Origin: Chitinophagales bacterium | GTDB taxonomy: Bacteria; Bacteroidota; Bacteroidia; Chitinophagales; CAIOSU01 | Assembly (NCBI GenBank): GCA_040877935.1 | Contig: JBBDNB010000056.1 | Span: forward strand, 1-49,969 | Length of the DNA: 49,969 nt | Direction: 5' to 3' | Part shown: one piece after another, positions 3,604 to 27,870 of the stretch | How the letters are laid out: each line of letters opens with the position of its first letter | Numbering within the stretch: the stretch's first letter is position 1 | Program-made: the position numbers and the translations under genes | Notes under the pieces: generated by a model | What the model was told of the DNA's origin: nothing | The model's input: only the letters and a program-made list of their open reading frames with translations | Database searches by the model: none

Positions 3604-4509
3604 TCAGTTTTTGATTATGTATATGGCTAAATTTCCTTTTTGCAACATCTCAAAATGTTTAAAGTGTGTTTGAATATTTCTTGTTAATCCATATTCCGTG
3701 TATCTATAAGATATTGCTGTTACAATTAAGTTCTTGGGAGTTAATTCAAGATGTTTGAATTTGATTACTTTACATGGACGAAAACCCATTTCAATTCTTT
3801 GATTCCTATATTTTGTCTCATATTTAAAGTCTTGTTTTTTGAAACCTAAAAGATTAAGTGCTAGCCAATTAAATTTTTCAGCATAGGTGTCTTTATATGG
3901 TGTTAAGATGCTCTCTAATTTGTCTTTGCTATAGAACTCAGTTATGATTATACTGAAATCATTGACTTGCATCAATTTATTTAGTAGGCTCAAAATGTAA
4001 TTTGGTCTGTAGTTATTAAATGTCAAACCAATTTGAAAAATCCTAGTTATGTCATAGTCATTCTTTGGTAAAATATGTTCAGGTAGTTCTTCAAACAAGC
4101 AGTTAATACTATTGGAGACAATTCCATATTTTTTCATTTCATTCGCTGTGATTTCTAAGAAACTTTTGGAAATATCTACAGGGATATATTTGAGAGGTAT
4201 TTTCCTCTTATTTGCTCCTTCTATTATCGGAATAGACTTTTTAGGTAAACCCGGGCCCAAGTCGTAAAATTCCAGCTTTATTAAGCTGTTAGGAAGAATG
4301 TTATTAACTTGTTCTTTAATAAGATTTACAATAGGATCATGTAGAGAATGAGCAAAATTATCCTTTTCGATCATCTCTATGTATGCCATAGCCTGTTCAT
4401 GTTCTAAGTATAAGTGATAGGGTTGGTCAAACCAGATATACTCAGTCTCGGTTTTTGTATTCCAAGTTTTTTTACTTGAAAGGAAGTGATTAGCTAATTC
4501 GTCATTCAT
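3604..4509 (-). CDS. EgtD-like SAM-dependent methyltransferase
   Basis: 301 residues. The SAM-binding motif I appears as YDLGPGLPKKS and is followed by a motif II-like YIPVDISKSFL. The later RIFQIGLTFNNYRP corresponds to the 'GSTIGNF' block of the histidine N-alpha-methyltransferase (EgtD/DUF2260) superfamily, and the C-terminal SYRYTEYGL lies where EgtD proteins have S-x-K/R-Y. It probably N-methylates an amino acid or amine; whether histidine is the substrate is not known, and no other ergothioneine genes are present. It is the first gene of the three-gene cassette that ends in a Na+ symporter. An attC-like site lies 28 bases upstream of the start. Confidence 0.78.
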   Translation of the reverse strand: MNDELANHFLSSKKTWNTKTETEYIWFDQPYHLYLEHEQAMAYIEMIEKDNFAHSLHDPIVNLIKEQVNNILPNSLIKLEFYDLGPGLPKKSIPIIEGANKRKIPLKYIPVDISKSFLEITANEMKKYGIVSNSINCLFEELPEHILPKNDYDITRIFQIGLTFNNYRPNYILSLLNKLMQVNDFSIIITEFYSKDKLESILTPYKDTYAEKFNWLALNLLGFKKQDFKYETKYRNQRIEMGFRPCKVIKFKHLELTPKNLIVTAISYRYTEYGLTRNIQTHFKHFEMLQKGNLAIYIIKN

Positions 4510-9565: not shown

Positions 9566-10225
9566 AAAATCTGGTGTACAAAGCACTGATTATTAATCGA
9601 AAAATCAATAAAAACAAAAAACTGAAAAGTAAAATAACTAAAGTTTCGAAGCAAAATTGAGCAGAGTTTATCCTGAGGTATTTTTCTACGAGGTACATTA
9701 GTCAAGGGATCAGTTAACTCAATATAATTTGTAATCCGGGAGAGAATGGCATTGAGCAGTTGAGCCATAAAACAAGCATAAACGGAGTGGCCATTGCGAC
9801 TTTGTCCGAAGCACAGCAATCGGAAAATTTTGAAAAAATTTCCCGCTAATTGCGTAGCGAGTTTAGTCGCAATAATGCAGTGTTGCGTAGCTTTTATGAG
9901 TTCAATTGGTCGCAGCCTTGAATTTTTTGCCTGCCTGACCGGCAAAGGCAGGGTACTTTTTTTTCAAGAAAAAAGTACGGACAAAATGTCAATGGCAGCA
10001 CTTGTCAGAAGCATTGGTTAAATCAGGCATGAATAGTGAATTCAGGGCATCCCTATACCTGAAAATGATTTCTTACTTTTTGGAGTATTGAATTTGTTTG
10101 TAATTATATTAAAACCAGTGATTTATGGCAAATCAATACAGCTTTATCATATGCTTATTCAAAATAAAGAGAACTCCGAAACTTTAGTAAAATAATTCCG
10201 ATTTCAACAACTGGTTTAATACATT
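9566..10225. repeat. Gene-free interval with hairpins and repeat-like sequence
   Basis: No convincing gene is present; open frames here look like chance or repeat remnants. A GC-containing inverted repeat CCTGCC...GGCAGG (about 9930-9952) lies next to a strong AT-rich hairpin, GTACTTTTTT (9953-9962) against AAAAAAGTAC (9969-9978), which could terminate transcription in either direction. The region 9780-9920 contains phrases such as TTGCGTAGCGAG and TTGCGTAGC that recur internally, as in Bacteroidota interspersed repeats. Confidence 0.5.
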
Positions 10226-10233
10226 TATCTTTG
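10226..10233 (+). promoter_or_regulatory. Candidate -7 element (TATCTTTG)
   Basis: Matches the Bacteroidota -7 consensus TAnnTTTG and lies 33 bases before the start codon of the S9 peptidase. No clear TTTG -33 partner is visible at ideal spacing, so this is a moderate call. Confidence 0.45.
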
Positions 10234-10266
10234 GCCAATATCTAATGATTTTAAAAAATACTTTGT

Positions 10267-12918
10267 ATGCAATTTTTAATTAGAAGCTTTTCTTTCGTTT
10301 TAATTCTGTTATCTATACAATTACACGCCCAGGAAACTCCTTTACTGGATCGCGATTTATTTTTTGGAAACCCTGAAATTTCGAGCGGTCAGCTCAGTCC
10401 TGATGGCAAGTGGATTTCCTTTATGAAGGAATACAACGGGATTATGAATATTTGGGTGAAAAAGTTTGATGCCCCATTTGAAGCGGCAAGACCACTGACG
10501 GACAGTCCGCGACCGCTATACGGTTATTTCTGGACAAAAGACGGAAAATACATCCTTTATGCCAAAGACAAAGATGGCGATGAAAATATCAATGTATTTG
10601 CAGTGAACCCTATGGCTGAAGCGCAAGCAGGAAGTGTGCCCAATTCCAGAAATCTTACACCGGTCCAAGATGTAACTGCCCGTATTTATGCAGTAAGTGA
10701 CAATGACCCCGACCTTATGATGATTGGTTTAAACGACAGGGATAAGGCTTGGCACGACCTGTATTCATTAGAAATTTCTTCAGGAGAAATGATAAAGCTC
10801 TATGAAAACAGGGATCGGGTGACCAGTTATGAATTCGACTGGGAAGATAGTTTAAGGCTGTTGAGCAGAACAGACGAAGCAGGGAATACAACTATTTTGA
10901 GATTAGATAAGCACGGCAATACTACACCAATTTATGAAACGGATGTAACCGAGCAGGCTTATGTTGCAGGATGGAACAAAGACAATTCTAAATTTTACCT
11001 GGTTAGCAATAAAGGAGATCTGGATTTATCCACGCTATTTTTAATGGATCCTGAAACTAAGGAGCTGGAAAAAATTGAAGAAGATCCTAAAAAAAGAGTT
11101 GATTTTGGTGGGATGATGCTGGATGACAATACCCGTGAAATTGTTTATACATCATATACTGACGATAAAAAACGCTATTATTGGAAGAACAAGGAATGGG
11201 AAAAGAATTACAATTTTTTGAAAGAAAAATTCCCTGAAAGAGAGATCAGTTTTCAAAGTTATACCAATGATTATTCTAAATTCCTGATTTCAGTTTGGGG
11301 CGATAAATACCCTTCTGAATCATACTTCTTTAATACGGCATCAGATTCACTTATTTTTCAGTACACCCCTCGTCCTGAGCTGAAAGAGCAGGAAGAACAC
11401 CTGGCCAAAATGCAGCCAATTCGTTACAAGAGCAGCGATGGCCTGGAAATTCCCGCATACCTGACTATCCCAAATGGAAAAGAAGCAAAAAACCTGCCTG
11501 TTGTGGTGCTGGTGCATGGCGGTCCAAAAGGCCCACGTGACAACTGGGGCTACAATCCAATTGTTCAATTTTTGGCCAATAGAGGATATGCAGTACTACA
11601 GCCCAATTTCAGGGCTAGCGGTGGCTATGGGAAAGCTTTTTTAAATGCAGGAGATTTAGAATGGGGAAAACTCATGCAGGATGATATCACCTGGGGCGTA
11701 AAGCATTTAATCGCAGAAGGTATAGCCAATCCTTCTAAGGTAGGTATTATGGGTGGTAGCTATGGTGGTTATGCTACTTTGGCCGGCTTGGTCTTTACTC
11801 CGGATTTATATGCCTGTGGGGTCGATATAGTGGGGCCAAGTAATCTTTTCACGCTTTTGGAATCTATTCCGGCCTATTGGGAAGCCGGCAGGGCTTATTT
11901 TTATGGCATGATAGGCGATCCGGAAACAGAAGAAGGTCAAAAAAGAATCAGAGAGGCCAGTCCATTGTTTCATGCAGACAAGATCAAAAAACCACTCTTG
12001 ATTATTCAGGGAGCAAACGACCCGCGTGTAAAACAGGCAGAAGCCGATCAAATTGTAATTGCATTAAGGGATAAAAACAAACAAGTGGACTATTTGCTTG
12101 CAGACGATGAGGGGCATGGATTTGCCAAAGCAGTCAATCGCATGGCCATGTTTGCAGAAACAGAAAAGTTTTTAGCAGAAATATTAGGGGGCAGATACCA
12201 GAAAGAAATGTCTGAAGATGTTGCTAAAAGACTGGAAGAAATACGTGTGAATATTGATGATGTGACTTATGAGCCTATTGAAAAGAAAGCATCTGTGGGT
12301 CAATTGCCGGAAATTAATAATTCTCTTAAAAAACAAAGTTTTGAATACGATATTATGCTGAAATCCAGGGGACAGGAAATTCCTATGAAAATGACGCGCA
12401 GCATTGAAAAATACGATGAGAACAATTGGCTGGTAAAAGACCTGACAACCGGCCCGATGGGAGAAATAGTGGATGAAATGTTTTATACTGAAAATTTTGT
12501 ACCTGTTGAAAGAAAACTCGATCAATCAGGACAAAAGCTATCATTTAGCTATGCTCCCGATAAGGTTGTTATAAATATATTGGGCAAGGACAATGAAATT
12601 GAAATGGATGCTGCTTATATAGCTGATGCTCCCGGTTTGGATCAACTTATAGCAGGCTTTAATCTAAAAGAAGATTTTGAGTTGGTATTTGAAATGCCCG
12701 ATATGAATACAATGAAATCCAAACAAATGAAATTGAAAGTATTGGGCAGGGAAGATGTAAACAACAACAAATGCTGGAAAGTAGAAATTCTGTCAAGGGT
12801 AGAAGGTGATGCTTCGAGAACTACACTTTGGATCAACCAAAAGAAAGACTATGCCGAGAAAATCGAACAATTTATACCTGAAATGGGCGATGCTTTGATA
12901 ATAACTACCAAAAAATAA
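10267..12918 (+). CDS. S9 family prolyl oligopeptidase-type peptidase with C-terminal extension
   Basis: 883 residues. A signal peptide ([10 protein letters not shown]...LHAQ) is followed by a beta-propeller region (about 35-370). The alpha/beta hydrolase domain has Ser498 in GGSYGGY, Asp585 in GANDPR and His617 in DEGHGF, a complete catalytic triad in the order of acylaminoacyl/dipeptidyl peptidases. It should cleave peptides in the periplasm or at the surface. The enzyme fold ends near residue 645, and about 235 more residues follow that are beta-rich and resemble DUF3108/LolA-like lipid-binding sandwiches. That extension is not usual in the family. A TAnnTTTG element lies upstream. Confidence 0.92.
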
Positions 12919-15480: not shown

Positions 15481-16173
15481 TTACAAATACTTAAAAATGG
15501 TATAGAGTATTTTATACCCGGCCATAAAGGAGCCTTTGAGCGTTCCACTGACTTTTGAGTGGCCAATGCGTTTTCTGTAAGTCACCGGCACTTCGGTGCA
15601 ATTCAGCTTTTGTTTGGCAGCTTTCAGTTGCATTTCTACAGTCCAACCATAGGTGGTATCTTGCATGTTTAGTTGTATAAGCTTCTCGAATTTTATGGCG
15701 CGAAATGGCCCCAGGTCGGTGAATTTCATGCCGTAAAACTGTTTGATTAAAAAAGTAGCCAGCCAATTTCCGAAAATCTGCTGTGGCATCATGGCTCCCA
15801 ATTCCCTGCTTCCGAGTGCACGCGAACCTATAACGAGATCATAATCCCGTTCAATAATGGGTTGTACAATTTTTGGCAGTTCTTCCGGATAATCTGAATA
15901 ATCGGCATCCAGAAAAACAATAATATCTGGTTTTTCACTCAAATTAGCACAATAGGCTATCCCTTTCAAACAGGCAAAACCATAGCCTTGCCGTAGCTCT
16001 TCCAATACTGTAGCTCCTGCATCTTCTGCCTTGATTTTAGTAGCATCATTTGAATTGTTATTGACAACTATAATTTCATATACCCAATCTTTGGGAATAT
16101 CCCCGATGACTTTAGAAACAGCATTCTCTTCATTGAAAGCTGGAATAATAACGACAATGCTCTGATCAGACAT
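15481..16173 (-). CDS. GT2 family glycosyltransferase, polyprenyl-phosphate sugar synthase-like
   Basis: 230 residues with no membrane segments, the size of DPM1-like enzymes. The nucleotide-sugar fold is visible as VVIIPAFNEENAV, VVNNNSNDAT and FLDADYSDYP (the DxD metal site), with GSRALGSRE and TDLGPFRAI further on. It probably transfers a hexose from a nucleotide sugar to a lipid carrier on the cytoplasmic face. The gene starts 3 bases after the stop of the larger GT2 protein, so the two form the end of the long minus-strand run. Its stop is convergent with the S74 protein gene, 10 bases apart. Confidence 0.88.
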   Translation of the reverse strand: MSDQSIVVIIPAFNEENAVSKVIGDIPKDWVYEIIVVNNNSNDATKIKAEDAGATVLEELRQGYGFACLKGIAYCANLSEKPDIIVFLDADYSDYPEELPKIVQPIIERDYDLVIGSRALGSRELGAMMPQQIFGNWLATFLIKQFYGMKFTDLGPFRAIKFEKLIQLNMQDTTYGWTVEMQLKAAKQKLNCTEVPVTYRKRIGHSKVSGTLKGSFMAGYKILYTIFKYL

Positions 16174-16176
16174 TTC

Positions 16177-17679
16177 TTAAGATTTAAATTTTTCATTGAA
16201 AAGAGAATAGTAAAATACGAGCGCAAACCCCAAGCAAAGCATAAAGAGAAATGGCATGAGGCTGTATTCCCCAAAATAGGCAGCCATTGCCAGCCCAAAA
16301 GAGAAATACAGTACCAAAAGGCCTTCGAGTATTGTAATCAAATTAATGGAAGAAAGCACATAATTGCTTTTTGAAATCAGCTTGTGTTCTTGGGTAATAT
16401 TGAATTTGGGTGTTCGGATAAAAGGTGTTTTTTTACCGATGTAACCTTGGGCTACGGCAATTGCATTGTGCAGTGAAAGCCCCATGGATATGGCCAGGAA
16501 TAAGGGGAATTTAATCATGAACTTCCCTAATGCTTTTGAAATGGATTTTTCATTTTTCAAATTTGACACAAAATACAAAGCACCTATGGCCAAAAAGCTG
16601 AGGATAAAAATGGATGCATAATTGACTATATCATCCAGATAGCTGAACCGGTTTTTGAAATAAACCAGGGGTACGCTTACTATGGCACTTGAAATCACAG
16701 CGATAAACACCAGGTTGTTGAGCAGGTGAAAAATGGCGTGAAACCGGGTTTTTAAGGGCATTTTCAATTTCATAACATTCCAAAAATGCTTTCGGGCTGT
16801 TTCGGCACCGCCCTTGGTCCAGCGGTATTGCTGCGATTTAAGGGCACTCATCACAGGGGGCAGTTCTGCCGGAGCTGTCACATCTTCTAAATATTTGAAT
16901 TTCCAGCCTTTCATTTGTGCCCGGTAGCTGAGATCAAGATCTTCTGTAAGTGTATCAAAATTCCAATTGCCGCTGTCTTCAATACATTTCTTGCGCCACA
17001 CACCGGCAGTACCATTAAAGTTGATAAATGAATTGGAAATGTTCCTTCCGCTTTGCTCCACTACAAAATGTCCGTCCAGGCCAAATGCCTGCATTTGAGT
17101 CAGCAAAGAGTAGTTTTTATTGATGTGCTCCCAGCGTGTTTGCACCATCCCAATTTCAGGATTAAAAAAACAGGGAATGGTTTTCAATAAAAAATCCTTT
17201 TCGGGCAAAAAATCGGCATCGAAAATGGCTATAAATTCACCTTTGGCTATTTGAAGGCTATGTGCAAGTGCGCCTGCTTTAAAACCGCTTCTGTCAGTTC
17301 GATGGATGTGCAGGATGTCAAATCCTTTGTTTTTCCAATAACTGACCCGTTCGGCAATAATGTCAAAAGTTTCATCTGTAGAATCATCCAATACTTGTAT
17401 TTCCAATTTATTTGTAGGATAATCCAATTTGGCAATGGCATCTATAAGTCTTGAAGCGACCAGTTTTTCATTGTAAATAGGGAGTTGAACACTCACAAAA
17501 GGGAAATGCTCCTGCTTAATATTGTCTTCAAACTGAGCAGCTTTAAGGTTTTTCTTTTTGAAAAGGTATTGGTAAACCAGGTGCAGTTGGGCTAAGCTAT
17601 AAAAGAATATAAACGAAAGCGCAATTGTATAAATGGCAATAATGACCGAAACAAATATTTTTACTGCTGTTATTTCCAT
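16177..17679 (-). CDS. Membrane GT2 glycosyltransferase (cellulose-synthase-like)
   Basis: 500 residues. One N-terminal and about four C-terminal membrane helices flank the cytoplasmic catalytic domain. Motifs are in order: VQLPIYNE, VLDDSTDE, FDADFLP (DxD), TEDLDLSYR (catalytic D of the TED box) and QQYRW (QxxRW). This set defines processive or ceramide-glucosyltransferase/CsbB-like enzymes that transfer sugars at the inner membrane. Product unknown. It is 23 bases downstream of the Fe-S membrane protein and 3 bases upstream of the small GT2, suggesting co-transcription and a shared glycolipid product. Confidence 0.9.
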   Translation of the reverse strand: MEITAVKIFVSVIIAIYTIALSFIFFYSLAQLHLVYQYLFKKKNLKAAQFEDNIKQEHFPFVSVQLPIYNEKLVASRLIDAIAKLDYPTNKLEIQVLDDSTDETFDIIAERVSYWKNKGFDILHIHRTDRSGFKAGALAHSLQIAKGEFIAIFDADFLPEKDFLLKTIPCFFNPEIGMVQTRWEHINKNYSLLTQMQAFGLDGHFVVEQSGRNISNSFINFNGTAGVWRKKCIEDSGNWNFDTLTEDLDLSYRAQMKGWKFKYLEDVTAPAELPPVMSALKSQQYRWTKGGAETARKHFWNVMKLKMPLKTRFHAIFHLLNNLVFIAVISSAIVSVPLVYFKNRFSYLDDIVNYASIFILSFLAIGALYFVSNLKNEKSISKALGKFMIKFPLFLAISMGLSLHNAIAVAQGYIGKKTPFIRTPKFNITQEHKLISKSNYVLSSINLITILEGLLVLYFSFGLAMAAYFGEYSLMPFLFMLCLGFALVFYYSLFNEKFKS

Positions 17680-17702
17680 TGGTGATGCCGGCTGAGCTTG
17701 CT

Positions 17703-19109
17703 TTATTTTTGATCTGAAATTCCAAAAGCCTTTGGCTCGTGTAATTTACCAACTAATTCAGGATTATGGTTAAACCGGCCTTCTTCCGGCCCATTTTCAA
17801 GCTTTAATACACCTCTTGGGCAAACTGCCGAGCAAATTCCACAGCCCACACAGGAGGAGCGAACAATATTTTGCCCGCGTTGTGCATAGGCTTTCACATC
17901 AATACCCATTTCGCAGTAGGTAGAGCAATTGCCACAGGAAATACACTGGTCACCGTTTGTGGTAATCCTAAAGCGCGATTTAAAGCGCTGAAACAATCCG
18001 ATATATGCTGCCAGAGGGCAGCCGAAACGACACCACACGCGATTTCCTAAAATAGGGTAGAAGCCAACTCCGGCAACACCTGAAAAAGCCGCACCTATTA
18101 CAAAACCATAGGGGCGGGTGAAATATTCATAAATGCTAAGTCCAAGAAATCTATCAGAATTGGTGAAATAGCCGTATAAAACTACTATGGTGACAATTGT
18201 GATCAGCAGCAATACACCATGCACCATCCATCGTTCGATTTTCCAGGAGCGTAGTGTTTTTGTGGAATTGTGTCTAAAAGGATCTCCGGCAGTTTCTGCC
18301 AGTCCACCGCAGCCACATACCCAGGAGCAATACCAGCGTTTGCCGTAGAAATAACTGAATATGGGAGTGCCTACTGCAAATAGAAAAATCCCGAATACCA
18401 AATAAAACATTCCCAGGCTGCCTCCACTCAGCATATTGTCCAGGTGCCAGCTTTCAAAAAAATAGTGGTTCAAAGGCCATATATTTTTGATGTCTTTGGC
18501 AAAATAAGCCTTGTCATCGTGCATGCCTTCTAAAATTTGTGGTATCAAGTAGGCGGTGAACAGTTGAAAAAACATGACCGAAAGGGTGCGAATTGTCTGA
18601 TAGCGATTGTGCCTGTATTTCAATAAAAATTTATAACCCATAGCCAGAATGGCTACAGTATAAAGCGTACCATACACAAACCACTGATCGGCAGGCTCGC
18701 CTGTAAAAAATTGGCTCAATGGATCAAAAAGCGCAATGATACCGGTATTTGAACTGCTTTCATTTGCAAGACCGAGTGATGCCGGAAACCAGTAGAGCAG
18801 GACATAAAACCCGGTAAGGACTATTCCGATGGCCCAGGCTATTGCCCCTTTGTTGGTGAGTGCGGCATGATAAACACCATTGTTTTTAATCCCTTCGGGC
18901 TGCTTGCCGTAGGATGCATGTGCATACCATGCTGCTCCTGCAAAGAGCATAGCAATCGACAGGGGTAGAAAAATATTCGAATTAAGATGAACTCCTGCAA
19001 TGGTCACCAGTAGAATTAATATGCCAATAGAGCCTGTGGCCAGGGCAAGCTTTTGCTGAAGGTTTAATCCTGCGGAATCGGGGTTGGCTATGGAAATGCT
19101 TTCATTCAT
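17703..19109 (-). CDS. NapH/CcoG-like polyferredoxin membrane protein
   Basis: 468 residues. About six to eight membrane helices (from residue 25 to 360) are interrupted by cysteine motifs YCSWVCGCGG and RFGCPLAA, as in NapH/NosR/RdxA proteins. They are followed by a C-terminal pair of [4Fe-4S] binding sites: CISCGNCSTYC with EM, and CVGCGICSAVCP. It should pass electrons across or along the inner membrane. The next gene upstream is an FAD oxidoreductase ending 20 bases away, which could supply electrons from NAD(P)H. No nitrate, nitrous oxide or cytochrome oxidase genes accompany it, so the final acceptor is unknown. Confidence 0.88.
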   Translation of the reverse strand: MNESISIANPDSAGLNLQQKLALATGSIGILILLVTIAGVHLNSNIFLPLSIAMLFAGAAWYAHASYGKQPEGIKNNGVYHAALTNKGAIAWAIGIVLTGFYVLLYWFPASLGLANESSSNTGIIALFDPLSQFFTGEPADQWFVYGTLYTVAILAMGYKFLLKYRHNRYQTIRTLSVMFFQLFTAYLIPQILEGMHDDKAYFAKDIKNIWPLNHYFFESWHLDNMLSGGSLGMFYLVFGIFLFAVGTPIFSYFYGKRWYCSWVCGCGGLAETAGDPFRHNSTKTLRSWKIERWMVHGVLLLITIVTIVVLYGYFTNSDRFLGLSIYEYFTRPYGFVIGAAFSGVAGVGFYPILGNRVWCRFGCPLAAYIGLFQRFKSRFRITTNGDQCISCGNCSTYCEMGIDVKAYAQRGQNIVRSSCVGCGICSAVCPRGVLKLENGPEEGRFNHNPELVGKLHEPKAFGISDQK

Positions 19110-19129
19110 AATAGTTCATGAGTTTAATG

Positions 19130-20467
19130 TTAATTCAATTTGAAAATATTCATCAGGCTTTTCTTTTTCAGTTTCACATAGGCATTGTTTTCTGCATTGT
19201 ATTTTTCAACAATTTCTTTTTCGTGTTTTTTATAAAACTCAGGATCAAAATTGGCATCTTTCAGGTGTTCTAAAACATACTCCACCGTTCTTTTTTCAGT
19301 AAGCCAGCGATCCATGATTTCATGCCGCAGACGTATGCCCAAAGCATTTATACCCTTGAAAACTTTGTCGGTTTTATCAAAAACAAAATGCAGGGCTTTT
19401 TTGCCAGATAGGTCTTCCCAATAAAAATCTTGCTCATTGTCTTGGAGCTTCGGCATCACCCAACCGTAGGTTTGGTATTCTATATCAAAAAATTTAGCTG
19501 AATTGAACCAATTGCCGGGCGCATAGGCTGTTCTTTTATGGCTGAGGGTTTGCGCCAAAGCCTCCCCATGCATTCGACCGGTGTACCACACCTGCTCTAT
19601 GTTTCTGCGATTGTATCCGGGCGACTCCTTAAACTGTGCACAGTCACCAATGGCATAGACATCTTCGATATTGGTTTCCAGGTATTCATTGACCAAAATA
19701 CCTTTTTCGGTTTCAATCCCTGAGTTTTTCAGAAATTCAATATTGGGATGTACACCCACTGTTAGCCCTACAAATTGGCACTCAATTTTTTCGCCAGACT
19801 TGGTGATAATGGCTTTTACTTTTCCGTTTTCATCGCCTTCTATGGATTCCAGTTCGGTGGATAATTGCAAATCAATGCCGTGTTCGCGGATATGCCTGCC
19901 AATAAGTTCTGACTCTAGCGGTGGCAATACATTGTTCCAAAAGCCGGATTCCCGTACTAAAAATGAAACAGGGATATTCCTTGAATGCAGCATTTCCACC
20001 ATCTCTATGCCGATCAAGCCACCCCCGACAACCACTGCACGGGAAATGTCTTTGGTGTTTTCCTCCATCAGTTCCAAATCGGGATAGCTGTACAAGCCCT
20101 GTACGCCTTTCAAATCCTGGCCCGACCAGCCGAATTTATTGGATTTGCTGCCGCTGGCAATTACCAGCTTATCGTAACTGATTTCAGCACTGTTTTTTAA
20201 AGAAAGCTTTTTATTGTCGGTATCCACATTTTCAACAAAACCATAAAACAGTTCAATGCGGTTTTTCTCCCAGAAAAAATCCTCATAGGGTTTGGTATCC
20301 ACGTAGCGCATGTGTCCCATATAAATGTACATGAGTGCAGTGCGCGAGAAAAAATGTTTGGTTTCAGCAGAAATGACCGTAATGCGGTGGTCGCTGTTTT
20401 TGCGAATATGACGGGCACAGGTAATGCCCGAAATTCCATTTCCAATTATGACAATGTGCTCTTGCAT
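19130..20467 (-). CDS. NAD(P)/FAD-dependent oxidoreductase
   Basis: 445 residues. An N-terminal FAD dinucleotide motif (IIGNGISGITCARHI) is followed by a second nucleotide-binding motif near residue 145 (VVVGGGLIGIEM). The DVYAIGDCAQF block contacts FAD. This is the rubredoxin-/nitrite-reductase-type reductase fold; there is no fused rubredoxin or Fe-S domain. It probably reduces the neighbouring Fe-S membrane protein using NAD(P)H. It belongs to a conserved-looking set with a DUF547 lipoprotein and a TIGR04282 glycosyltransferase upstream. Confidence 0.9.
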   Translation of the reverse strand: MQEHIVIIGNGISGITCARHIRKNSDHRITVISAETKHFFSRTALMYIYMGHMRYVDTKPYEDFFWEKNRIELFYGFVENVDTDNKKLSLKNSAEISYDKLVIASGSKSNKFGWSGQDLKGVQGLYSYPDLELMEENTKDISRAVVVGGGLIGIEMVEMLHSRNIPVSFLVRESGFWNNVLPPLESELIGRHIREHGIDLQLSTELESIEGDENGKVKAIITKSGEKIECQFVGLTVGVHPNIEFLKNSGIETEKGILVNEYLETNIEDVYAIGDCAQFKESPGYNRRNIEQVWYTGRMHGEALAQTLSHKRTAYAPGNWFNSAKFFDIEYQTYGWVMPKLQDNEQDFYWEDLSGKKALHFVFDKTDKVFKGINALGIRLRHEIMDRWLTEKRTVEYVLEHLKDANFDPEFYKKHEKEIVEKYNAENNAYVKLKKKSLMNIFKLN

Positions 20468-20502
20468 TTATTATCAAGTTAAAGGTTGAACCAACTCTGA
20501 AA

Positions 20503-20517
20503 AGCGGTCTGACCGCT
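20503..20517. repeat. REP-like hairpin AGCGGTCTGACCGCT
   Basis: Perfect inverted repeat, 5-bp stem and TCTGA loop, preceded by AAA. Related copies lie at 42549-42563 and 42614-42628, so it is a dispersed palindrome rather than a local operator. In this place it sits between two co-oriented genes and could trim or attenuate the transcript. Confidence 0.6.
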
Positions 20518-20562
20518 ATACATCATGGTTTTTATTTTCCGAGAGGACTCTTGATCCTCGCT

Positions 20563-21339
20563 TTATTTAAAATTCTCTTTTTCATTCAAAGCCCAGTTGT
20601 ATTCCATGTATTCGATTTCTGTATTTTCTGTTATTTTCACCGGAGCGTATTGATTCAGGTATTCAATCAAAGTCATTTCCTCGGTAAAATCACCGGTAAA
20701 CCATTTGAAAATTTTAGAAATGCGGGGCTGCTCTACCGAAACCTGATTGCGCAGAGTATCGCTTAAAAATTCCCTGGCACTATTATCCAATTGTTGCTCT
20801 AAGCTCTTGGCTTCAAAGGCTTCTCTGCGTAATTTAGGACAGGAAACCGATGCGCAAACAATGGCGAAATGTATGCGTGGTTCTTCGAGTTTTTTGCGCA
20901 ATTGTCCGTGTTCTACCAGGTTCAGATCCATTTGCTGTTCTCCAATTTTGAAAAATTTAATGTCCCAGGGAGTCGTAACAAAAGGAATATTGATTTTACT
21001 ACCGATGTCTTTGATGCTTTCCACAGGATAATGATCAATGATTAATTTTACGGTAAAAGCATTGTACACATTGATCCAGTAGGCAATTTGTTCTTCCCGG
21101 CTCCATTTATCATCATCGGGCGGGGTGTTGCTCAATAGTTCAAGATAGGTGTTGAGTGCACTGCTGTCTTTTATAAAACCAGGGTAATTTACAGCTCCGT
21201 TTTCTGCCACATGTTTTTTTAACAACTGAGTCCAGTTATCGTGATTGGGAGCTGAAGTGCCGCTGCCTTTAAAATTCACCGAACGACAGGACAGGAATAG
21301 GCTGGCGATGATTAGAAAAAATAAAGTTGTTCTTCTCAT
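20563..21339 (-). CDS. DUF547 domain lipoprotein
   Basis: 258 residues with a lipoprotein signal (LFLSCRS, Cys18). The DUF547 core is clear: NYPGFIKDSSALNTYLELL, EEQIAYWINVYNAFTVKLI, HFAIVCASVSCPKLRREAF. The 'WINVYNA' and 'C.S.SCP' blocks are family hallmarks, and a cysteine/histidine arrangement recalls transglutaminase-like enzymes, but the biochemical role is not established. It overlaps the TIGR04282 glycosyltransferase gene by 4 bases. A larger DUF547 paralogue fused to a beta-barrel lies 4 kb away at 25376-26947 in the same strand run. Confidence 0.88.
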   Translation of the reverse strand: MRRTTLFFLIIASLFLSCRSVNFKGSGTSAPNHDNWTQLLKKHVAENGAVNYPGFIKDSSALNTYLELLSNTPPDDDKWSREEQIAYWINVYNAFTVKLIIDHYPVESIKDIGSKINIPFVTTPWDIKFFKIGEQQMDLNLVEHGQLRKKLEEPRIHFAIVCASVSCPKLRREAFEAKSLEQQLDNSAREFLSDTLRNQVSVEQPRISKIFKWFTGDFTEEMTLIEYLNQYAPVKITENTEIEYMEYNWALNEKENFK

Positions 21340-21959
21340 GCCATTCCTGTTTTACTGTCTTCCTGAATTTGCTGAAAAGCAATATAATCTTCCATAGTAT
21401 CTATATCTATCAGTTCGGGCAATATATAGGTTTTTAATTGCAAAGCCTTTAAATCTTTTAAAGTGTCGAGAAAAACTGAAGTGCTGCTCCATTTTTTGTT
21501 TTCAAACAAAGTCCTGTGCTGCTTTTTCATCCCAAGTAAATAATAACCCCCATCATTTGCGGGACCAATTACTGCATCGTGATTGTCCAGTTTTTCAAAA
21601 GCGGTATCAAGGTGTATTGTATTAATCTGCGGACAATCGCTGCCAATTATAATGCAGTTTTTGTGTCCCAGGGAAAACACTTCTTCAAATGCCCGGCTCA
21701 TTCTTTTTCCCAGATCGGTTCCTTTTTGCAGTCTTTGGTGGAAGCCGTTTTTTGCCCAGGCATCACCGGTATCTATTTTATCCGAATAAAAAACATATTT
21801 CTCACAATTGCTTAGCTTCTTGCAGATTTGTAAAGTATAATTCAAAAGCTGAAGGTATATTTCTAATGCCTGGTCAATACTACTGCCCTCTGCCAACCTG
21901 GTTTTCACCATTCCGGCTACAGGGTTTTTTACAAATATGATGAGTGCGTTTTTATGCAT
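21336..21959 (-). CDS. TIGR04282-type (arsenosugar biosynthesis-like) glycosyltransferase
   Basis: 207 residues. Family landmarks are FVKNPVAGMVKTRLA at the N-terminus, the metal site IIGSDCPQI near the middle, and AVIGPANDGGYYLLGM. These belong to the DUF2064/TIGR04282 nucleotidyl/glycosyltransferases. The family name comes from clusters with ArsS; no arsS, arsM or other arsenic gene is visible here, so the substrate remains open. It begins the downstream half of the minus run, with its stop overlapping the start of the DUF547 lipoprotein gene. Confidence 0.88.
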   Translation of the reverse strand: MHKNALIIFVKNPVAGMVKTRLAEGSSIDQALEIYLQLLNYTLQICKKLSNCEKYVFYSDKIDTGDAWAKNGFHQRLQKGTDLGKRMSRAFEEVFSLGHKNCIIIGSDCPQINTIHLDTAFEKLDNHDAVIGPANDGGYYLLGMKKQHRTLFENKKWSSTSVFLDTLKDLKALQLKTYILPELIDIDTMEDYIAFQQIQEDSKTGMA

Positions 21960-22049: not shown

Positions 22050-22610
22050 TTAGGGCAAGTTATTTAATATATCTTTCACCTTAGCACGCTTTTTATAATC
22101 CGGGTCAAAATGTCTCCATACAACTTTTCCATCGGTTCCTATTATGTATGTAGCAGGAATGGGCAATCTTTGGCTGTCATCAGAATGCACTTCTTTTAAA
22201 TTTGCTCTTAGCAATGTATTGTATATTGCCCTGGAAATAGTGTCTGGTCGGAATGTCACATCAAAAGCATCAGAAATTTTATAGCCTTCATCGTACAATA
22301 ATGTAAATTCGGCACCGGTTTTGCTCATGGTTTTTTTTAAAAACTCTGATTTTTCAGGTGAAATTGCAACCACAGTAGCGCCTTTCTCATAGATTTGAGG
22401 CAATTGTTTTTGAATTTTACTCAAATGATTGTTACAGATCGGACACCACTGACCGCGATAAAATATCAATACTACCGGCCCTTTTTGCAAAGCCTTTGAT
22501 AATTGATAAACAGAGTCATTTTGGTTAATGGCAGAGAAGTCAGGTGCTTTTTCACCAACTTTCAATCCTTTTGCTTCCTTTACTTTTTTAAAATTTTGTT
22601 GTGTTTCCAT
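22050..22610 (-). CDS. Peroxiredoxin-like (AhpC/TSA family) protein
   Basis: 186 residues, no signal peptide. The thioredoxin fold contains FYRGQWCPICNNHL, with a peroxidatic-type cysteine and a second cysteine in a CxxC arrangement, then VVAISPEKSEFLKK and a GTDGKVVWRHFDPDY end. It probably reduces peroxides or acts as a thiol oxidoreductase in the cytoplasm. It lies downstream of the frameshifted P460 cytochrome and the MNIO operon, separated from them by a strong hairpin (22680-22724). It may be expressed by read-through as a redox-protection gene of that operon or stand alone. Confidence 0.87.
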   Translation of the reverse strand: METQQNFKKVKEAKGLKVGEKAPDFSAINQNDSVYQLSKALQKGPVVLIFYRGQWCPICNNHLSKIQKQLPQIYEKGATVVAISPEKSEFLKKTMSKTGAEFTLLYDEGYKISDAFDVTFRPDTISRAIYNTLLRANLKEVHSDDSQRLPIPATYIIGTDGKVVWRHFDPDYKKRAKVKDILNNLP

Positions 22611-22679
22611 AGTTCTTCATTCTTCATCAATACAAGGGCAATAATTGCTATTGCAAGCATTCTAAAGTGTTTTAATTGA

Positions 22680-22724
22680 CCTGCCCGGCAATATTTATTA
22701 TTCTGTTGCCTTATGCCGGGCAGG
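22680..22724 (-). terminator. Strong 11-bp hairpin downstream of the MNIO operon
   Basis: CCTGCCCGGCA (22680-22690) pairs perfectly with TGCCGGGCAGG (22714-22724) around a 23-base loop. It begins 9 bases after the P460 stop codon in the direction of transcription. No long U-tract follows, so it may be a terminator, a partial terminator or an mRNA 3'-end stabiliser. Confidence 0.6.
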
Positions 22725-22732
22725 CCAGGGTT

Positions 22733-23240
22733 TTATTTAGAAAATACAAAATCAGTTGAGGCTGAATTGTGGCAATTGCCGCACATTCCATTCATCAATA
22801 GTGCACCGCGCATTACTTCGCCTGAGTTTGGATCTTCTGCAATGCTGCCATCAGCATGAACCACTCCCATCCATTGTTGGCGGGGTGAAAGAACCACCTC
22901 TTTTTACCATTGCTGTGTATTGTTCAATCGTTTCGCCTGTATTTGTTGTTTTTTTGACAATTATAGTACCTACAGGGTATTCACTGGAAGATGGGGTTTG
23001 TCCGTCTTTAAAAAACACTTCTCTGGTAACAGTACTATCATTTCCCCCGTGCGTTGAACCAATTGCGGGGTCATACCCTTCAGCAGTATGATCTAAAGAC
23101 CAGGTTTCGAAATCAGAAAAGGATGATGATTCTGCAATAAATTCATTCGGTTCTGTATCATCATCTTTGTCGCAAGCCTGAAGAATGAGTATTAAACTGA
23201 TTAAGGTTGACGCCATTAATAATAAATTGGTTTTTCTCAT
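22733..23240 (-). pseudogene. Cytochrome P460-type lipoprotein with c-type haem motif, reading frame broken
   Basis: The first 120 codons encode a lipoprotein (LILQAC lipobox, Cys23) with the P460 features HGGNDSTVTREVFF, YPVGTIIVKK and TAMVKRGGSF. That frame stops at 22851. In the other frames the family sequence continues: NNGWEWFML in one (about 22855-22881), then ADGSIAEDPNSG, RGALLMNGMCGNCH (CxxCH at 22769-22783) and TDFVFSK to a stop at 22733 in the next. Two single-base losses about 25 bases apart would explain this; one insertion also joins first and last frames but loses the WEWF block. It is either a recent pseudogene or contains sequence errors. The start lies 2 bases after the HvfC-like gene, so it belongs to the MNIO operon. 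Confidence 0.72.
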
Positions 23241-23242
23241 GA

Positions 23243-24016
23243 TTAAATATATTTAGGGTTAAAAAATCCAAGGATTAATCTGCTTTTTAGTGCAGATGTG
23301 ATAAATATTTCCAATGCTTTTTCAGCTTCTTCTTTTGCTGCATAACGCATAAATATTTCGAGCATGTCTTCATAATTGACTTGAATGCTTTCCTGAAACT
23401 GAAGCAATTCCATAAGCAATACATGGGCTGTACCAAGCTCAGTAAAAATAACATTGCCACTTTCCGGATGTCTGTGCAGTGAAAGCAGATAAAGTCCTTT
23501 ATCATAAGGCTTAATATCTTTTGCTTTTTTTAAGTGTACAGGGAATTCCAAAGAGCAAACTCTTATTTCCGGGTTTAGTATAAGCCCTTGTTCTTTATGA
23601 TCTCTTTCAGTATAATAGTCTGGCGTTTTTTCATCCTCCATCATATACACTTCAATTTCAAGCCACTCCATAAGAAGCAGGTCTATAATAAAGGGATATT
23701 TTTTTACGATTTTTAGATTGGATTCTCCTTTGAAATAAGTAAAGAACTCATAGGGCATTCGCCATATTTGTGGAGATTGACTTTTGTGAGAAATACGAAA
23801 TTCATTTACTAAACTGTCCCATTCCCCTTTACTTAATAAACTGTGTGTCAGAGGGTAAGCTTTTGTCAAGCTGTCATCAAAAACACCTTTAACAAGACGG
23901 TGGTATTGATGAACATGCTTTTCATCTACACCTGGTATAGAAGGAAGTATTCCTGTTTTACAAAATGAGGCGAGCTTGTTTTGATATCGAAGGGTTGATT
24001 CTTTAAGCAACTGCAT
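23243..24016 (-). CDS. HvfC/DUF2063-like partner of the MNIO enzyme
   Basis: 257 residues, soluble. The N-terminal third (YQNKLASFCKTG, YHRLVKGVFDDSLTKAYPLTHSLL) matches the DUF2063 'putative DNA-binding' domain. In HvfC, BufC and related proteins this domain binds the RiPP precursor and delivers it to the MNIO oxidase. The C-terminal half (about 120-257) holds a second domain with HRHPESGNVIFTELGTAHVLLMELL, as in longer members of the family. It overlaps the MNIO gene by 14 bases, strong evidence for a joint complex. Confidence 0.85.
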   Translation of the reverse strand: MQLLKESTLRYQNKLASFCKTGILPSIPGVDEKHVHQYHRLVKGVFDDSLTKAYPLTHSLLSKGEWDSLVNEFRISHKSQSPQIWRMPYEFFTYFKGESNLKIVKKYPFIIDLLLMEWLEIEVYMMEDEKTPDYYTERDHKEQGLILNPEIRVCSLEFPVHLKKAKDIKPYDKGLYLLSLHRHPESGNVIFTELGTAHVLLMELLQFQESIQVNYEDMLEIFMRYAAKEEAEKALEIFITSALKSRLILGFFNPKYI

Positions 24017-24833
24017 TTTCTATAGATTTTAGAGCATTGCGTTTTATATTTTTCAATCGATTTATTTCGTATTGTAAATCTTTCATTTCCGGAATATTGA
24101 AATCTCTTTCAAGAAGTACAGGGAGGTCTAAATTTGTGGTTTTTATGGCATAATCGAAAAGTTCATATACAGGGTCGATTATTGCTTTGCCATGTGTGTC
24201 AATAATTAGGTCATCGCTGATTTTTTCGTGGCCGGCCATATGCATGTATGCTATGCGATCAAAGGGCAGTTGGTCAATATACTCTCTACTATTGTATTGG
24301 TGATTGAAGCTGTTTACATAAATGTTGTTGATATCAAGTAGCAGTAGGCAGTCGGCTTCTTCCAAGACAGCATTCACAAAATCAATTTCACTCATTTCGG
24401 CTGCAACAGGGGAATAATAGCTGACTATTTCAATAGCAATCCTTTGTTCTAAAAAATCCTGTACTTTTCTGATTTTTGAGGCAACATGTTTTACTGCATC
24501 ATCTGTAAAAGGAATAGGGAGCAGATCATATAGGTGTGCATTAGAACATTTAGAGAAACTTAAATGCTCAGAATAGATCAGTGCACCGGTTTCGTTTAGA
24601 AATTTTTTGACTTTTGCTAAAAATTCGTAATCTAAATCATCGGGGCTACCTACTGATAAAGAAAGGCCGTGTGTGTAAAGCGGATATTTTTCCAATGCTT
24701 TCTTCAATTCTTTTTTCCAGTAGCCGCCTATTTCTATCCAGTTTTCAGGAGCCAGCTCTATAAAATCCGGTTTTATTCCTGAAGCATCTATTACTTCGCG
24801 TGAAAAATCTTTTCTAAATCCTATTCCAACCAT
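24003..24833 (-). CDS. MNIO family oxidase (DUF692; MbnB/HvfB/BufB-like)
   Basis: 276 residues from the start chosen here (ATG at 24833, MVGIGFRKDF). An upstream ATG at 24881 is in frame but lies in a hairpin and would add 16 unconserved residues. The TIM-barrel multinuclear iron oxidase signature is complete: IELAPENWIEIGG, THGLSLSVGS, YSEHLSFS, LLLDINNIYVN, YMHMAGH, DTHGKAI and LLERDFN, supplying the His/Glu/Asp/Asn iron ligands. Family members oxidise cysteines of precursor peptides to thiooxazole or oxazolone-thioamide groups. The gene is preceded by a small Cys-motif precursor and followed by its HvfC-like partner. Confidence 0.93.
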   Translation of the reverse strand: MVGIGFRKDFSREVIDASGIKPDFIELAPENWIEIGGYWKKELKKALEKYPLYTHGLSLSVGSPDDLDYEFLAKVKKFLNETGALIYSEHLSFSKCSNAHLYDLLPIPFTDDAVKHVASKIRKVQDFLEQRIAIEIVSYYSPVAAEMSEIDFVNAVLEEADCLLLLDINNIYVNSFNHQYNSREYIDQLPFDRIAYMHMAGHEKISDDLIIDTHGKAIIDPVYELFDYAIKTTNLDLPVLLERDFNIPEMKDLQYEINRLKNIKRNALKSIENAVA

Positions 24834-24852
24834 AGCCTTGCTTTTATGATGA

Positions 24853-24881
24853 ATGATGCCGGCAATAGTTACCGGCATCAT
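24853..24881 (-). promoter_or_regulatory. Intergenic hairpin between precursor peptide and MNIO genes
   Basis: ATGATGCCGG (24853-24862) pairs perfectly with CCGGCATCAT (24872-24881) around a 9-base loop. It lies after the precursor stop and before the chosen MNIO start. No U-tract follows, so partial termination or mRNA processing that keeps precursor levels higher than enzyme levels is more likely than full termination, as in many RiPP operons. Confidence 0.6.
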
Positions 24882-24894
24882 ATCTAATCATCAA

Positions 24895-25284
24895 TTATGC
24901 ACATGTAGCTTCTTTGCTTTTACTTTCGCTTTTTTCGCTTTTCTTTTTGTCGGCTTTTGAGTCTTCTTTTCCACCGCAATTGGCCTCGGCAGATTTACTT
25001 TCTGTTTTTGCCTTTTTTGCATCATCCCCGCAATTGCCATCACCACATTTGGCCTCGGCATCTTTGGTTTCTGATTTTTGGGCTTTCTTACTGTCCTTTT
25101 CACCGCAAGTCAATTCCAAAGACAATTCATCAGAGTGATTTATTGCTTCGTTAGAAAGAGTGGATCTGATTTCTCCACCTGAACCCAGGGTTTTAAAATT
25201 TAATGAATTTGAAGCGCTGATGCTTCCTCCACTGATCATCACTCCTGATACCAGCGAGCCAATGATGAATTTTTTACTGTTCAT
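24895..25284 (-). CDS. Bufferin/HvfA-like RiPP precursor peptide (predicted copper-binding)
   Basis: 129 residues from the start chosen (ATG at 25284, MNSKKFIIGS). A longer frame from 25329 would put a charged, Cys-containing stretch before the signal peptide. A Sec-type signal (about residues 1-24) is followed by a Lys/Ser/Glu-rich low-complexity chain. All five cysteines of the mature part sit in [E/D]-x-x-C-[G/A] contexts: ELTCG (C60), EAKCG (C80), DGNCG (C85), EANCG (C103) and EATCA (C128). This closely resembles the EGKCG motifs modified in HvfA and the cysteines of bufferins. It directly precedes an MNIO gene. Likely exported to the periplasm to bind copper or another soft metal. Confidence 0.85.
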   Translation of the reverse strand: MNSKKFIIGSLVSGVMISGGSISASNSLNFKTLGSGGEIRSTLSNEAINHSDELSLELTCGEKDSKKAQKSETKDAEAKCGDGNCGDDAKKAKTESKSAEANCGGKEDSKADKKKSEKSESKSKEATCA

Positions 25285-25375
25285 GGTTTTTTGTTTTTGT
25301 TTGACAGAATAGTCGCAGCAAAAAACCAATCCTTACAAGTAATGAAAAAAAGAAAAGGAGCTTATAACATTTGGC

Positions 25376-26947
25376 TTACCAAATCACATAGCGCACGCCC
25401 AGATTGACCACCTCTCCAGCACCGGCATTTCTGCCTTTCAGAAAGTGATTGAAAGAGAGTTCGAGTTCTAAATTTTCAATCACATATACTTTGGTGCCCA
25501 CTCCGATTTGAATAAAATATTGCGACATGCCGAATTTACCCTCACTGTCTTTTGAAAAAGTGGGAAACCACTGGCCTAGGCCGTAAATGGTCAGTCTTTT
25601 TGTGGGAAAAGCACTGATGATATAGGTTAAAGGCGATTGAACCAGATTTTCGAGTTGGCTTTTGCCACCAAACCTTCCAATGATGTCCAGTCCAAAAAAA
25701 TGATTGAGGTAGTTGCCCTGTCTTTGGTCAAAAAACAACTGGTTCCACCAAAAAAACTTGTCGTAATCCAAAAAGGGTCTTCCCGATTCACTGCCTTCCA
25801 TATCCTTTGCAGTTGGAATATAAAAGGTGCTCTGCACCGAAAAATTACTGAGCTTTTTAAAGGGAATAAATTTAATTCTCGGCCCTGCAAATGCCAATTG
25901 GGTTTGGGCTATTTCATTGTTTCCAAAACGCAGGATTTTCACAGGGTTTTCGCTGCGATCTTCTACCTGCCGTACAGATTTAAAGATAAAATCTGCGCCA
26001 ATATTGATGCGCGGGTGCAATCCGGCAGTAAACTGGAAAAAACTTGTCAAGTAAGTGGAGCGCTTGTCCTCTATTCTTGTCCTGTTTTCATCAAAGAAAG
26101 TGTTTTGCGTGTAGAAATTATTCAACAGTCTTAATTCGAAAGTCCCCTTACTGTACAGCACTGAGCTGGTGTATAATTGCAGATTATTCTTTTTTTTTAC
26201 CGAATCTGTTCCCTGGTTTTTTGCAGGCGTATTCAGCGACCAGTCGTATGGATAGCTCATCCATTTGTAATTATCGGGGATTTCAATTTCGAGGTAACTC
26301 ATTATGTATTGCTCTATGGAGTTGTATTCTTGGGTGAAATCCTTTTCATACCAATTGAAAAGCTCAGAAAACAAGACCTTTTGTTCGGAGTGGTTTATCT
26401 TTAAAAAACCGGGATCGTTGATGACCTGTCGGGTTCGGTTTTCCAACTGCTGCTCGATGGAAGAGGGGAGATAGGCGTAATCAACAATTTCAGGGCAGCC
26501 TTTTGCAGCACAAACCAGCACAAAATGCAGGCGTGGATCAAAAAAATCTTTCATCAGCCATGACTTTTCCAAATCGTCAAGACTGACTTTTCTGCCTGCT
26601 ACATTGAAATTTTTCTTGTCGAAAAAACTGCTTATCTCCAGCGGTGAATTGATTGGGTAATGATTGATTACATTGCTTATGGTCAGTATGTTGTAAGCGT
26701 TGATCAAAAAAGCTTTTTGCTCATTTCTGTCTTTCTGTTGGTAGTCAAAATTTTCAATGTTGTTTAAAAGTGTTTTGAGCAAGCTTTGATCTTGCTTTAA
26801 GCGATCATAGTCCACTGCATTATCGATCACATACTGGTCAAAGAAACGGCCTGCTGTTTTGAAAAAATCATTTTCAGAGGCTGATAGCTGCATTGTTGCA
26901 GTAAACAACAGGATTAGTGGGATGATTATTCTGTACATATATACCAT
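25376..26947 (-). CDS. DUF547 domain fused to an outer-membrane beta-barrel
   Basis: 523 residues. A signal peptide (ends about LSAS) is followed by a DUF547 domain (about 25-245) with NEQKAFLINAYNILTISNVI and HFVLVCAAKGCPEIVDYAY. The rest (about 260-523) is a series of amphipathic strands (such as LQLYTSSVLYSKGTFELRLL) ending in the aromatic residue Trp, as in outer membrane barrels. The fusion is unusual; ordinary DUF547 proteins are about 250 residues. It lies between the sigma/anti-sigma pair and the RiPP precursor, on the same strand, so an outer-membrane role in the same response is likely. Confidence 0.8.
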   Translation of the reverse strand: MVYMYRIIIPLILLFTATMQLSASENDFFKTAGRFFDQYVIDNAVDYDRLKQDQSLLKTLLNNIENFDYQQKDRNEQKAFLINAYNILTISNVINHYPINSPLEISSFFDKKNFNVAGRKVSLDDLEKSWLMKDFFDPRLHFVLVCAAKGCPEIVDYAYLPSSIEQQLENRTRQVINDPGFLKINHSEQKVLFSELFNWYEKDFTQEYNSIEQYIMSYLEIEIPDNYKWMSYPYDWSLNTPAKNQGTDSVKKKNNLQLYTSSVLYSKGTFELRLLNNFYTQNTFFDENRTRIEDKRSTYLTSFFQFTAGLHPRINIGADFIFKSVRQVEDRSENPVKILRFGNNEIAQTQLAFAGPRIKFIPFKKLSNFSVQSTFYIPTAKDMEGSESGRPFLDYDKFFWWNQLFFDQRQGNYLNHFFGLDIIGRFGGKSQLENLVQSPLTYIISAFPTKRLTIYGLGQWFPTFSKDSEGKFGMSQYFIQIGVGTKVYVIENLELELSFNHFLKGRNAGAGEVVNLGVRYVIW

Positions 26948-26995
26948 AGAAAGCAGGGCTCTGGTTTAGTGATGGGCCTGGTTCTTACATTTGGG

Positions 26996-27256
26996 CTATG
27001 AGCTTTTGTTGCTGGTGATTTTTAAAATGTTTTTCCTGACATGATCAGGCAACTTTGCATTTTTCTTGTCTGGGATGTTTGAAGTATTCAGCAGGTAACT
27101 TTCAATGAAATGGCTGAATTTTTCATAACGCGAGCATACACCGCAAAGTATTAAGTGGGATTTTAACTGAAGCAATTCGCCCATTGACAACTTGTCAACA
27201 GCTTTTTTTTCGATCAGCTCACCGGCTTTTTTACAGGAAATCATGAGTGACATCAT
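26996..27256 (-). CDS. Small anti-sigma factor with zinc motif
   Basis: 86 residues. It contains the ZAS signature H34-x3-C38-x2-C41 (HLILCGVC) after an N-terminal SCKKAGELIEKK helix, as in zf-HC2 anti-sigma factors. No membrane segment is present, so it would be a soluble, redox- or metal-sensing anti-sigma factor that releases its sigma when the site is oxidised or occupied by another metal. The sigma gene ends 14 bases upstream. The pair probably controls the DUF547-barrel and MNIO genes downstream. Confidence 0.82.
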   Translation of the reverse strand: MMSLMISCKKAGELIEKKAVDKLSMGELLQLKSHLILCGVCSRYEKFSHFIESYLLNTSNIPDKKNAKLPDHVRKNILKITSNKSS

Positions 27257-27270
27257 AGCATTATAGGGTG

Positions 27271-27870
27271 TTATTTATTAAACCAGTTCAGGTCAATACA
27301 TTTTTTGAGCATCAACTTAGCCCTGTGGATTATTTGCCAATAATTTGACGGGGTGATTTCCAGCTCCTGACAGATGTCTTTGCCGTCTTTTTCAAGCAGG
27401 TATTTTGAGTTTACGGCAAAGCGCCAGTTTTCGGGCAGGTCATCCAGGCACAGCTCCATTACTTTTCTGAATTCATCATCATCCAAAAGGTGAATGTCAT
27501 CATCGATAAAAGCTTGTGATTCCGGGGCTTTCCATTTACCGTTTTCATCAAATAGGTTTTCGGTCAGGTCAAAGGCTTTTTTTTCAGATGGCTTATTGTT
27601 ATCTGTGCTGATGTATTTTATTTTTCTCCTGTAATGGTCTATGATTTTATTGTTAAGAATGGAAAAAAGCCAGGTTTTGGGTTTGCTGTCCTGTCTAAAC
27701 TTGTCCAGAGATTTATATGCCGAAAGAAATGTTTCCTGAACAATGTCCTGTGCCACCATTTCATCTGAAGTTTTGTGTAAAGCCCAGGAATACATGGCGT
27801 CACTGTAGTCATTTACCCAGGAGGAAAATTGAACTTCCTTTTCGGATTGACTTAAAGTATTTTTAATCAT
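27271..27870 (-). CDS. ECF-type RNA polymerase sigma factor
   Basis: 199 residues. Sigma region 2 (DIVQETFLSAYKSL, KTWLFSILNNKIIDHYRR) and region 4 (EITPSNYWQIIHRAKLMLKKCIDLNWF) are present, with an unusually long acidic linker (about 105-140). The ending 'KCIDLNWF' resembles ECF sigma factors found beside DUF692/DUF2063 operons in Proteobacteria (ECF16-type), a family comparison from memory. It heads the transcription run that continues to the anti-sigma, the DUF547-barrel and the RiPP genes. It likely responds to metal or redox stress via its ZAS partner. Confidence 0.87.
   Translation of the reverse strand: MIKNTLSQSEKEVQFSSWVNDYSDAMYSWALHKTSDEMVAQDIVQETFLSAYKSLDKFRQDSKPKTWLFSILNNKIIDHYRRKIKYISTDNNKPSEKKAFDLTENLFDENGKWKAPESQAFIDDDIHLLDDDEFRKVMELCLDDLPENWRFAVNSKYLLEKDGKDICQELEITPSNYWQIIHRAKLMLKKCIDLNWFNK

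Follow-up and report, generated by a model that had tools for sequence, protein, structure and literature searches.

The closest described systems are the captophorins, among them HvfABCX (oxazolin) of Haemophilus and fontiphorin. Passages of PMC13097082, in which the name captophorin is proposed, demonstrate 5-thiooxazoles and copper binding and mention frequent transcriptional regulators, and a part of PMC13419390 describes HvfC as required for the active diiron state of HvfB. An HvfX/DoxX gene is usual in operons of the HvfA type and is not taken here as defining. According to passages of PMC12452194, Buf_EGKCG peptides and oxazolins are mostly from Pseudomonadota, and the Buf1 bufferin clusters contain sigma factor and NrsF genes.

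The locus described here lies in a 49,969-nucleotide stretch (the window) of contig JBBDNB010000056.1 from a Chitinophagales bacterium. It resembles HvfABCX and fontiphorin in its secreted Cys-Gly precursor, HvfB-family MNIO, DUF2063-RRE partner and gene order, but has degenerate motifs, no adjacent DoxX gene, ECF/ZAS genes, a conserved LGSG..(V/I/L)R..L block ahead of the first cysteine and a stem-loop after the precursor. With the Buf1 bufferins it shares an MNIO, a DUF2063 protein and a secreted precursor under a sigma factor; unlike them, its precursor is not DUF2282, its anti-sigma factor is of the small ZAS type rather than NrsF, and its MNIO scores below the BufB cutoff. Like the chryseobasin (ChrH) systems it is an MNIO RiPP locus in Bacteroidota, but it has a DUF2063 partner, and its MNIO reaches only 51.9 bits with the ChrH model (cutoff 600). 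Within the passages available from the open-access literature, supplements aside (PMC12452194, PMC13097082, PMC13419390, PMC12636315, PMC12538549), we recognised no description of a Bacteroidota EGKCG operon with ECF/ZAS genes, and those passages likewise describe neither an ECF-type site before the precursor nor a stem-loop between precursor and MNIO.

Organization and identity of the locus

Eight genes, all on the minus strand, occupy positions 22050-27870 of the window (Table 1). Judged from their sequences, the precursor, MNIO and DUF2063/HvfC genes form a true operon, in the same gene order as in the relatives, and the locus is of the HvfA/EGKCG captophorin (oxazolin) type. We consider it likely that it represents a Bacteroidota member of this RiPP family under ECF sigma/ZAS control, with the DUF547-barrel, P460 and peroxiredoxin genes as mere neighbours. 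The RiPP family itself is already known; the present case belongs to a little-studied branch of Bacteroidota that has an ECF/ZAS regulator of its own. A preliminary description had listed the core genes, the precursor motifs and a P460-type cytochrome, and had read the locus as a bufferin/HvfA-type operon of a separate lineage with additional partners. The core genes, the motifs, the HvfA kind of MNIO RiPP operon and the distinct lineage stand; the P460 gene is broken, and the extended set of partners finds no support.

Table 1. Features of the locus and the evidence for their assignment
Feature	Position	Strand	Evidence
AhpC/TSA peroxiredoxin	22050..22610	-	PF00578 E 3.2e-28
Strong hairpin, no clear T run	22677..22727	-	-29.1 kcal/mol, z -5.67; inverted repeat I1
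P460-type cytochrome gene, frameshift-disrupted	22733..23240	-	parts in three frames
DUF2063/HvfC-like partner	23243..24016	-	PF09836 E 1.6e-9; HvfC 91.8 bits, cutoff 142
MNIO (HvfB family)	24003..24833	-	PF05114 E 2.4e-95; HvfB 382.3 bits, cutoff 360; alignment
Stem-loop between precursor and MNIO	24853..24881	-	inverted repeat I3; fold z -6.05 and -4.74
HvfA-like secreted precursor, 129 aa, 5 Cys	24895..25284	-	HMM of relatives E 2.1e-18
ECF-type promoter-like site TGTAAGG-N15-CGACT	25311..25337	-	sole full match in window; 26 nt before precursor ATG
DUF547 domain fused to outer-membrane-type barrel	25376..26947	-	PF04784 E 6.5e-24; AlphaFold model
ZAS-type anti-sigma, 86 aa	26996..27256	-	NF052368 41.5 bits, below cutoff 50; HX3CX2C by eye
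ECF sigma factor, 199 aa, probable regulator	27271..27870	-	Pfam Sigma70_r2 E 1.9e-17

The precursor begins at the ATG at 25284 and has a signal peptide as judged by eye. All five of the [E/D]xxC[G/A] motifs attributed to it earlier can be read from the sequence (ELTCG, EAKCG, DGNCG, EANCG and EATCA); it has just five cysteines, one of them preceding alanine, and the exact EGKCG motif is absent. The HMM that detects it was built from 23 relatives with the window left out, and also finds the N-terminal part alone (E 2.6e-14), compared with best E values of 0.74 and 0.42 for 200 shuffles and of 2.2 and 0.35 for other frames of the window; the resemblance in sequence is evidently more than chance. 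The NCBI HvfA model NF050188 gave 13.6 bits (cutoff 95) and NF050137 no match at E 0.1. Applied to the precursors of nine relatives, NF050137 was passed by six and NF050188 by none. Matching to Buf2 precursors relied on NCBIfam and Pfam scans, and the Pfam scan found no match in the precursor, DUF2282 included. Common to the Bacteroidota precursors are a signal-peptide-like start, the LGSG..(V/I/L)R..L block and Cys-Gly motifs that are often exactly EGKCG.

The MNIO assignment is firmly supported by Pfam (Table 1). The open frame reaches further upstream, to an ATG at 24881; the gene probably starts at the ATG at 24833, since aligned relatives begin at or just before MVG and the 16 extra residues overlie an inverted repeat with 13-nt arms. 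It has His, Asp and Glu residues in common with 3BWW and MbnB, compared by eye. R23 and D260-F261 resemble Arg15, Asp249 and Phe250 of FonB, a protein outside the alignment; FonB Arg16 would correspond to a lysine. Arg15, Asp249 and Phe250 are tied to catalysis or to Lys-Cys substrates in passages of PMC13097082.

The HvfC-like gene and the MNIO gene share 14 nt, and the HvfC-like product matches PF09836 with 38.3 bits (cutoff 27.2), in agreement with its earlier description as a DUF2063 partner. The NCBI HvfC cutoff is missed by the window protein and also by relative L088 (119.1 bits). HvfC follows MNIO in 26 of 27 other Bacteroidota loci, and the remaining contig ends inside the MNIO gene. 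No HvfX/DoxX gene lies next to the window HvfC, as had been reported; this absence does not serve as a distinguishing trait, since, of the 25 Bacteroidota relatives with enough sequence, 15 have DoxX after HvfC and 10 lack it. Where tested (2/2 loci), the DoxX neighbours pass the HvfX cutoff of 80 bits (113.7 and 125.2). There are four DoxX-family matches elsewhere in the genome; the best two of the four reach 46.4 and 54.8 bits against the same cutoff, and an HvfX acting in trans is unlikely.

It is conceivable that the locus is a decaying copy, in which DoxX and P460 have been lost, the precursor motifs have degenerated and active peptide is no longer made. The frameshifts in the P460 gene, the missing DoxX and EGKCG repeat, and the presence of MNIO in just one of seven family genomes would fit such decay. 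Nevertheless, the reading frames of precursor, MNIO and HvfC are unbroken, the promoter-like site is a full match and DoxX is missing from the 10 other loci as well, and we regard decay as unlikely.

Relatives and phylogeny

The relatives comprise 31 loci from one pattern-limited genome scan together with samples of further genomes, from which wider stretches were then fetched. Flanks available to the neighbour survey vary, mostly from 6 to 7 kb, and some loci are near copies (e.g., L003/L028 and the Chitinophaga loci). MNIO matches at E <= 1e-90, own genome included, occur in 1/7 genomes of the family, 8/395 of the phylum sample and 9/396 of the order sample; at E 1e-3 the phylum and order samples gave 25 and 50 matches, respectively.

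A tree of 43 MNIOs, which left out L006, L025, L030 and L032, unites 26 Bacteroidota sequences (window included) and two Chlamydiota sequences in one starred group (99/94), with 14 Pseudomonadota and one Planctomycetota row on the other side. The separate lineage previously suggested is upheld by this grouping apart from Pseudomonadota, though with the two Chlamydiota rows inside. The window MNIO clusters with four sequences from another family of the order, with a support of 80/83, below the starred level.

Both Chlamydiota rows come from MAG contigs (L011 4655-7147 and L013 5564-8007) that carry precursor, MNIO, HvfC and DoxX genes; their place among Bacteroidota suggests transfer or mis-binned contigs. 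In a Flavobacteriaceae MAG (L030 7519-7746), the EGKCG precursor is short, starts with what by eye resembles a lipobox and sits after HvfC rather than before MNIO; the MNIO match at this locus falls into two pieces.

ECF sigma/ZAS pair and promoter-like site

Of the 27 related Bacteroidota loci, 19 have a relative of the ECF sigma factor upstream of MNIO (one match is weak) and 17 have a ZAS relative there, which makes this pair a conserved partner, as the preliminary description had proposed. In the window the DUF547-barrel gene lies between the ECF/ZAS genes and the precursor, and the promoter-like site is downstream of that gene.

Most ECF-bearing loci have the pattern TGTMAGG-N15-CGWCT at a distance of 19-53 nt ahead of the precursor. 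Allowing up to two mismatches, 14 of the 18 loci with ECF, counting the window, have it versus one of eight without, two of the eight being Chlamydiota (Fisher p 0.003, with kinship ignored and the pattern derived partly from loci later counted). L099 was scored as a miss from a wrong start, a later start giving a full match, and L012, with its weak ECF, was counted as being without. The count left out L030, L090, L091 and L092, to which no precursor had been assigned; HMM search gives precursor candidates in all of these except L091. Three ECF-bearing loci (L003, L028 and L100) lack the site, and L002, the closest relative, carries it with no ECF gene within 6 kb. There is no genome-wide enrichment: the genome has 5 sites versus 11 for the reversed control, most of 15 other strong-MNIO genomes have fewer sites than the reversed control, and all six family genomes without strong MNIO also hold pattern sites, 1 to 4 each. 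The case for the site is one of position alone. A further occurrence of the pattern, close to the 3' end of the ECF gene in relatives, was considered as a sign of autoregulation and rejected; it lies inside the ECF frame over C(K/Q)EL.IT.S, protein sequence that by eye is shared.

Two of the other four sites in the genome (one has a spacer of 14 nt) lie ahead of paralogous DsrE-like genes, which hints at a regulon; the Pfam match to DsrE is weak (E 0.052). These genes lie on contig 28 (L162) at 4016-4447 and 8825-10832, each behind an ECF-type site; a peroxiredoxin resembling that of the window is nearby, and EgtB-/EgtD-like genes (by eye) come further on. In another genome, G660, two ECF-type sites (L155 1501-2964) stand before small genes beside another ECF-type sigma gene; this 3-kb stretch has no MNIO, and the MNIO of G660 is on another contig.

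Stem-loop between precursor and MNIO

Of 21 Bacteroidota loci, counting the window, 18 have a predicted stem-loop (z <= -2) in the gap from precursor to MNIO, and its sequence differs between loci. Two coding controls gave 1/21 and 2/21, and the corresponding counts were 0/5 for Pseudomonadota, two of which reached the threshold in one coding control, and 0/2 for Chlamydiota; anchorless loci were dropped from these counts (5/26 Bacteroidota and 9/14 Pseudomonadota). L002, L012 and L091 miss the threshold. With variable-length folding it is reached in 23 of 24 Bacteroidota loci and neither of the two Chlamydiota loci.

Neighbouring genes and alternative readings

The DUF547-barrel fusion, the P460-type cytochrome and the peroxiredoxin had also been put forward as partners, forming an export or redox apparatus of the system's own. 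The fusion itself is sound: the DUF547 domain is identified by PF04784, and an AlphaFold model of moderate quality (pLDDT 72, pTM 0.48) supports the barrel, showing 12 strands behind the DUF547 domain; the best Foldseek match is FapF, followed by a COG4313 channel. For the cytochrome, a P460-type gene remains and begins 2 nt after HvfC, but it is not intact, its CxxCH motif and signal peptide lying in different frames of the assembled sequence; this is either real decay or an assembly error. In six loci the P460 relative occupies one unbroken frame, and the two that were scanned both pass the Pfam Cytochrome_P460 cutoff. After the P460 gene, a hairpin of 14 bp separates off the peroxiredoxin gene, which is probably a unit of its own. 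The hairpin was not called terminator-like by a terminator pattern scan; it may possibly end the transcript ahead of the peroxiredoxin gene.

Linkage outside the window, proposed earlier as a check, fails for these three genes. Relatives of the DUF547-barrel, DUF547, P460, peroxiredoxin and downstream redox genes were found in none of the 27 other Bacteroidota MNIO loci (BLASTP E 1e-3), and the DUF547-barrel, P460 and peroxiredoxin in none of 19 further MNIO loci outside the Bacteroidota set. DUF547/barrel relatives adjoin FAD-oxidoreductase/Fe-S genes in 5 of 10 fetched loci, and relatives of that module's genes are found at 17703-20467 of the window; therefore, the MNIO operon may well lie inside or next to that module. 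The DUF547-barrel gene is probably a neighbour outside the captophorin system. The longest DUF547-barrel relatives are from genomes without strong MNIO (G070 and G051 have weak matches; G164 and G260 are not among the matches). Positions 15481-21959 of the window encode two family-2 glycosyltransferases, a NapH-like polyferredoxin, an FAD oxidoreductase, a DUF547 protein and a DUF2064 transferase; several of these genes have relatives grouped together elsewhere.

We find it improbable that the whole locus is a single extended operon, with the DUF547-barrel exporting the peptide and P460 and peroxiredoxin serving as redox apparatus. The common strand of all genes, the close spacing of HvfC and P460, the resemblance of the barrel to FapF, a polypeptide transporter, and the similar peroxiredoxin near DsrE-like genes with the same ECF-type site speak for it, but they are set against the absence of these genes from every MNIO locus surveyed, the broken P460 gene, a promoter-like site downstream of the DUF547-barrel gene, a hairpin before the peroxiredoxin gene and the FAD-oxidoreductase/Fe-S surroundings of DUF547/barrel relatives. 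That the DUF547 and FapF-like barrel was recruited as an exit channel through which the copper-binding captophorin leaves the cell, with no periplasmic buffering, is very unlikely. A strict bufferin (Buf1/Buf2) operon is likewise very unlikely: the MNIO does match BufB and sigma factors do occur in Buf1 clusters (PMC12452194, in part), but the "bufferin" label is unfit because the enzyme passes the HvfB cutoff and fails that of BufB (259.5 bits, cutoff 310), and the precursor has no DUF2282 match and carries C-G/C-A instead of C-K motifs.

Proposed mechanism and implications

For the ECF/ZAS-controlled captophorin operon, the most likely sequence of events is that stress would free the sigma factor, the secreted precursor would be made in excess, and MNIO-HvfC, by analogy with characterised homologues, would form copper-binding 5-thiooxazoles. 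The cytosolic ZAS anti-sigma factor would release the ECF factor once its Cys/His site is oxidised or metal-bound, and the freed factor would direct transcription from the 25311-25337 site. The stem-loop may keep precursor transcripts in excess over enzyme transcripts. MNIO-HvfC would turn precursor cysteines into 5-thiooxazoles in the cytosol, and the peptide, exported by Sec, would then bind copper in the periplasm.

The DUF547-barrel, P460 and peroxiredoxin genes drop off the list of supposed partners. The Bacteroidota ECF/ZAS switch, the promoter-like site and the intergenic stem-loop together make a directly testable regulatory model, and Chitinophaga, which carries the operon, is a candidate genus in which to test it.
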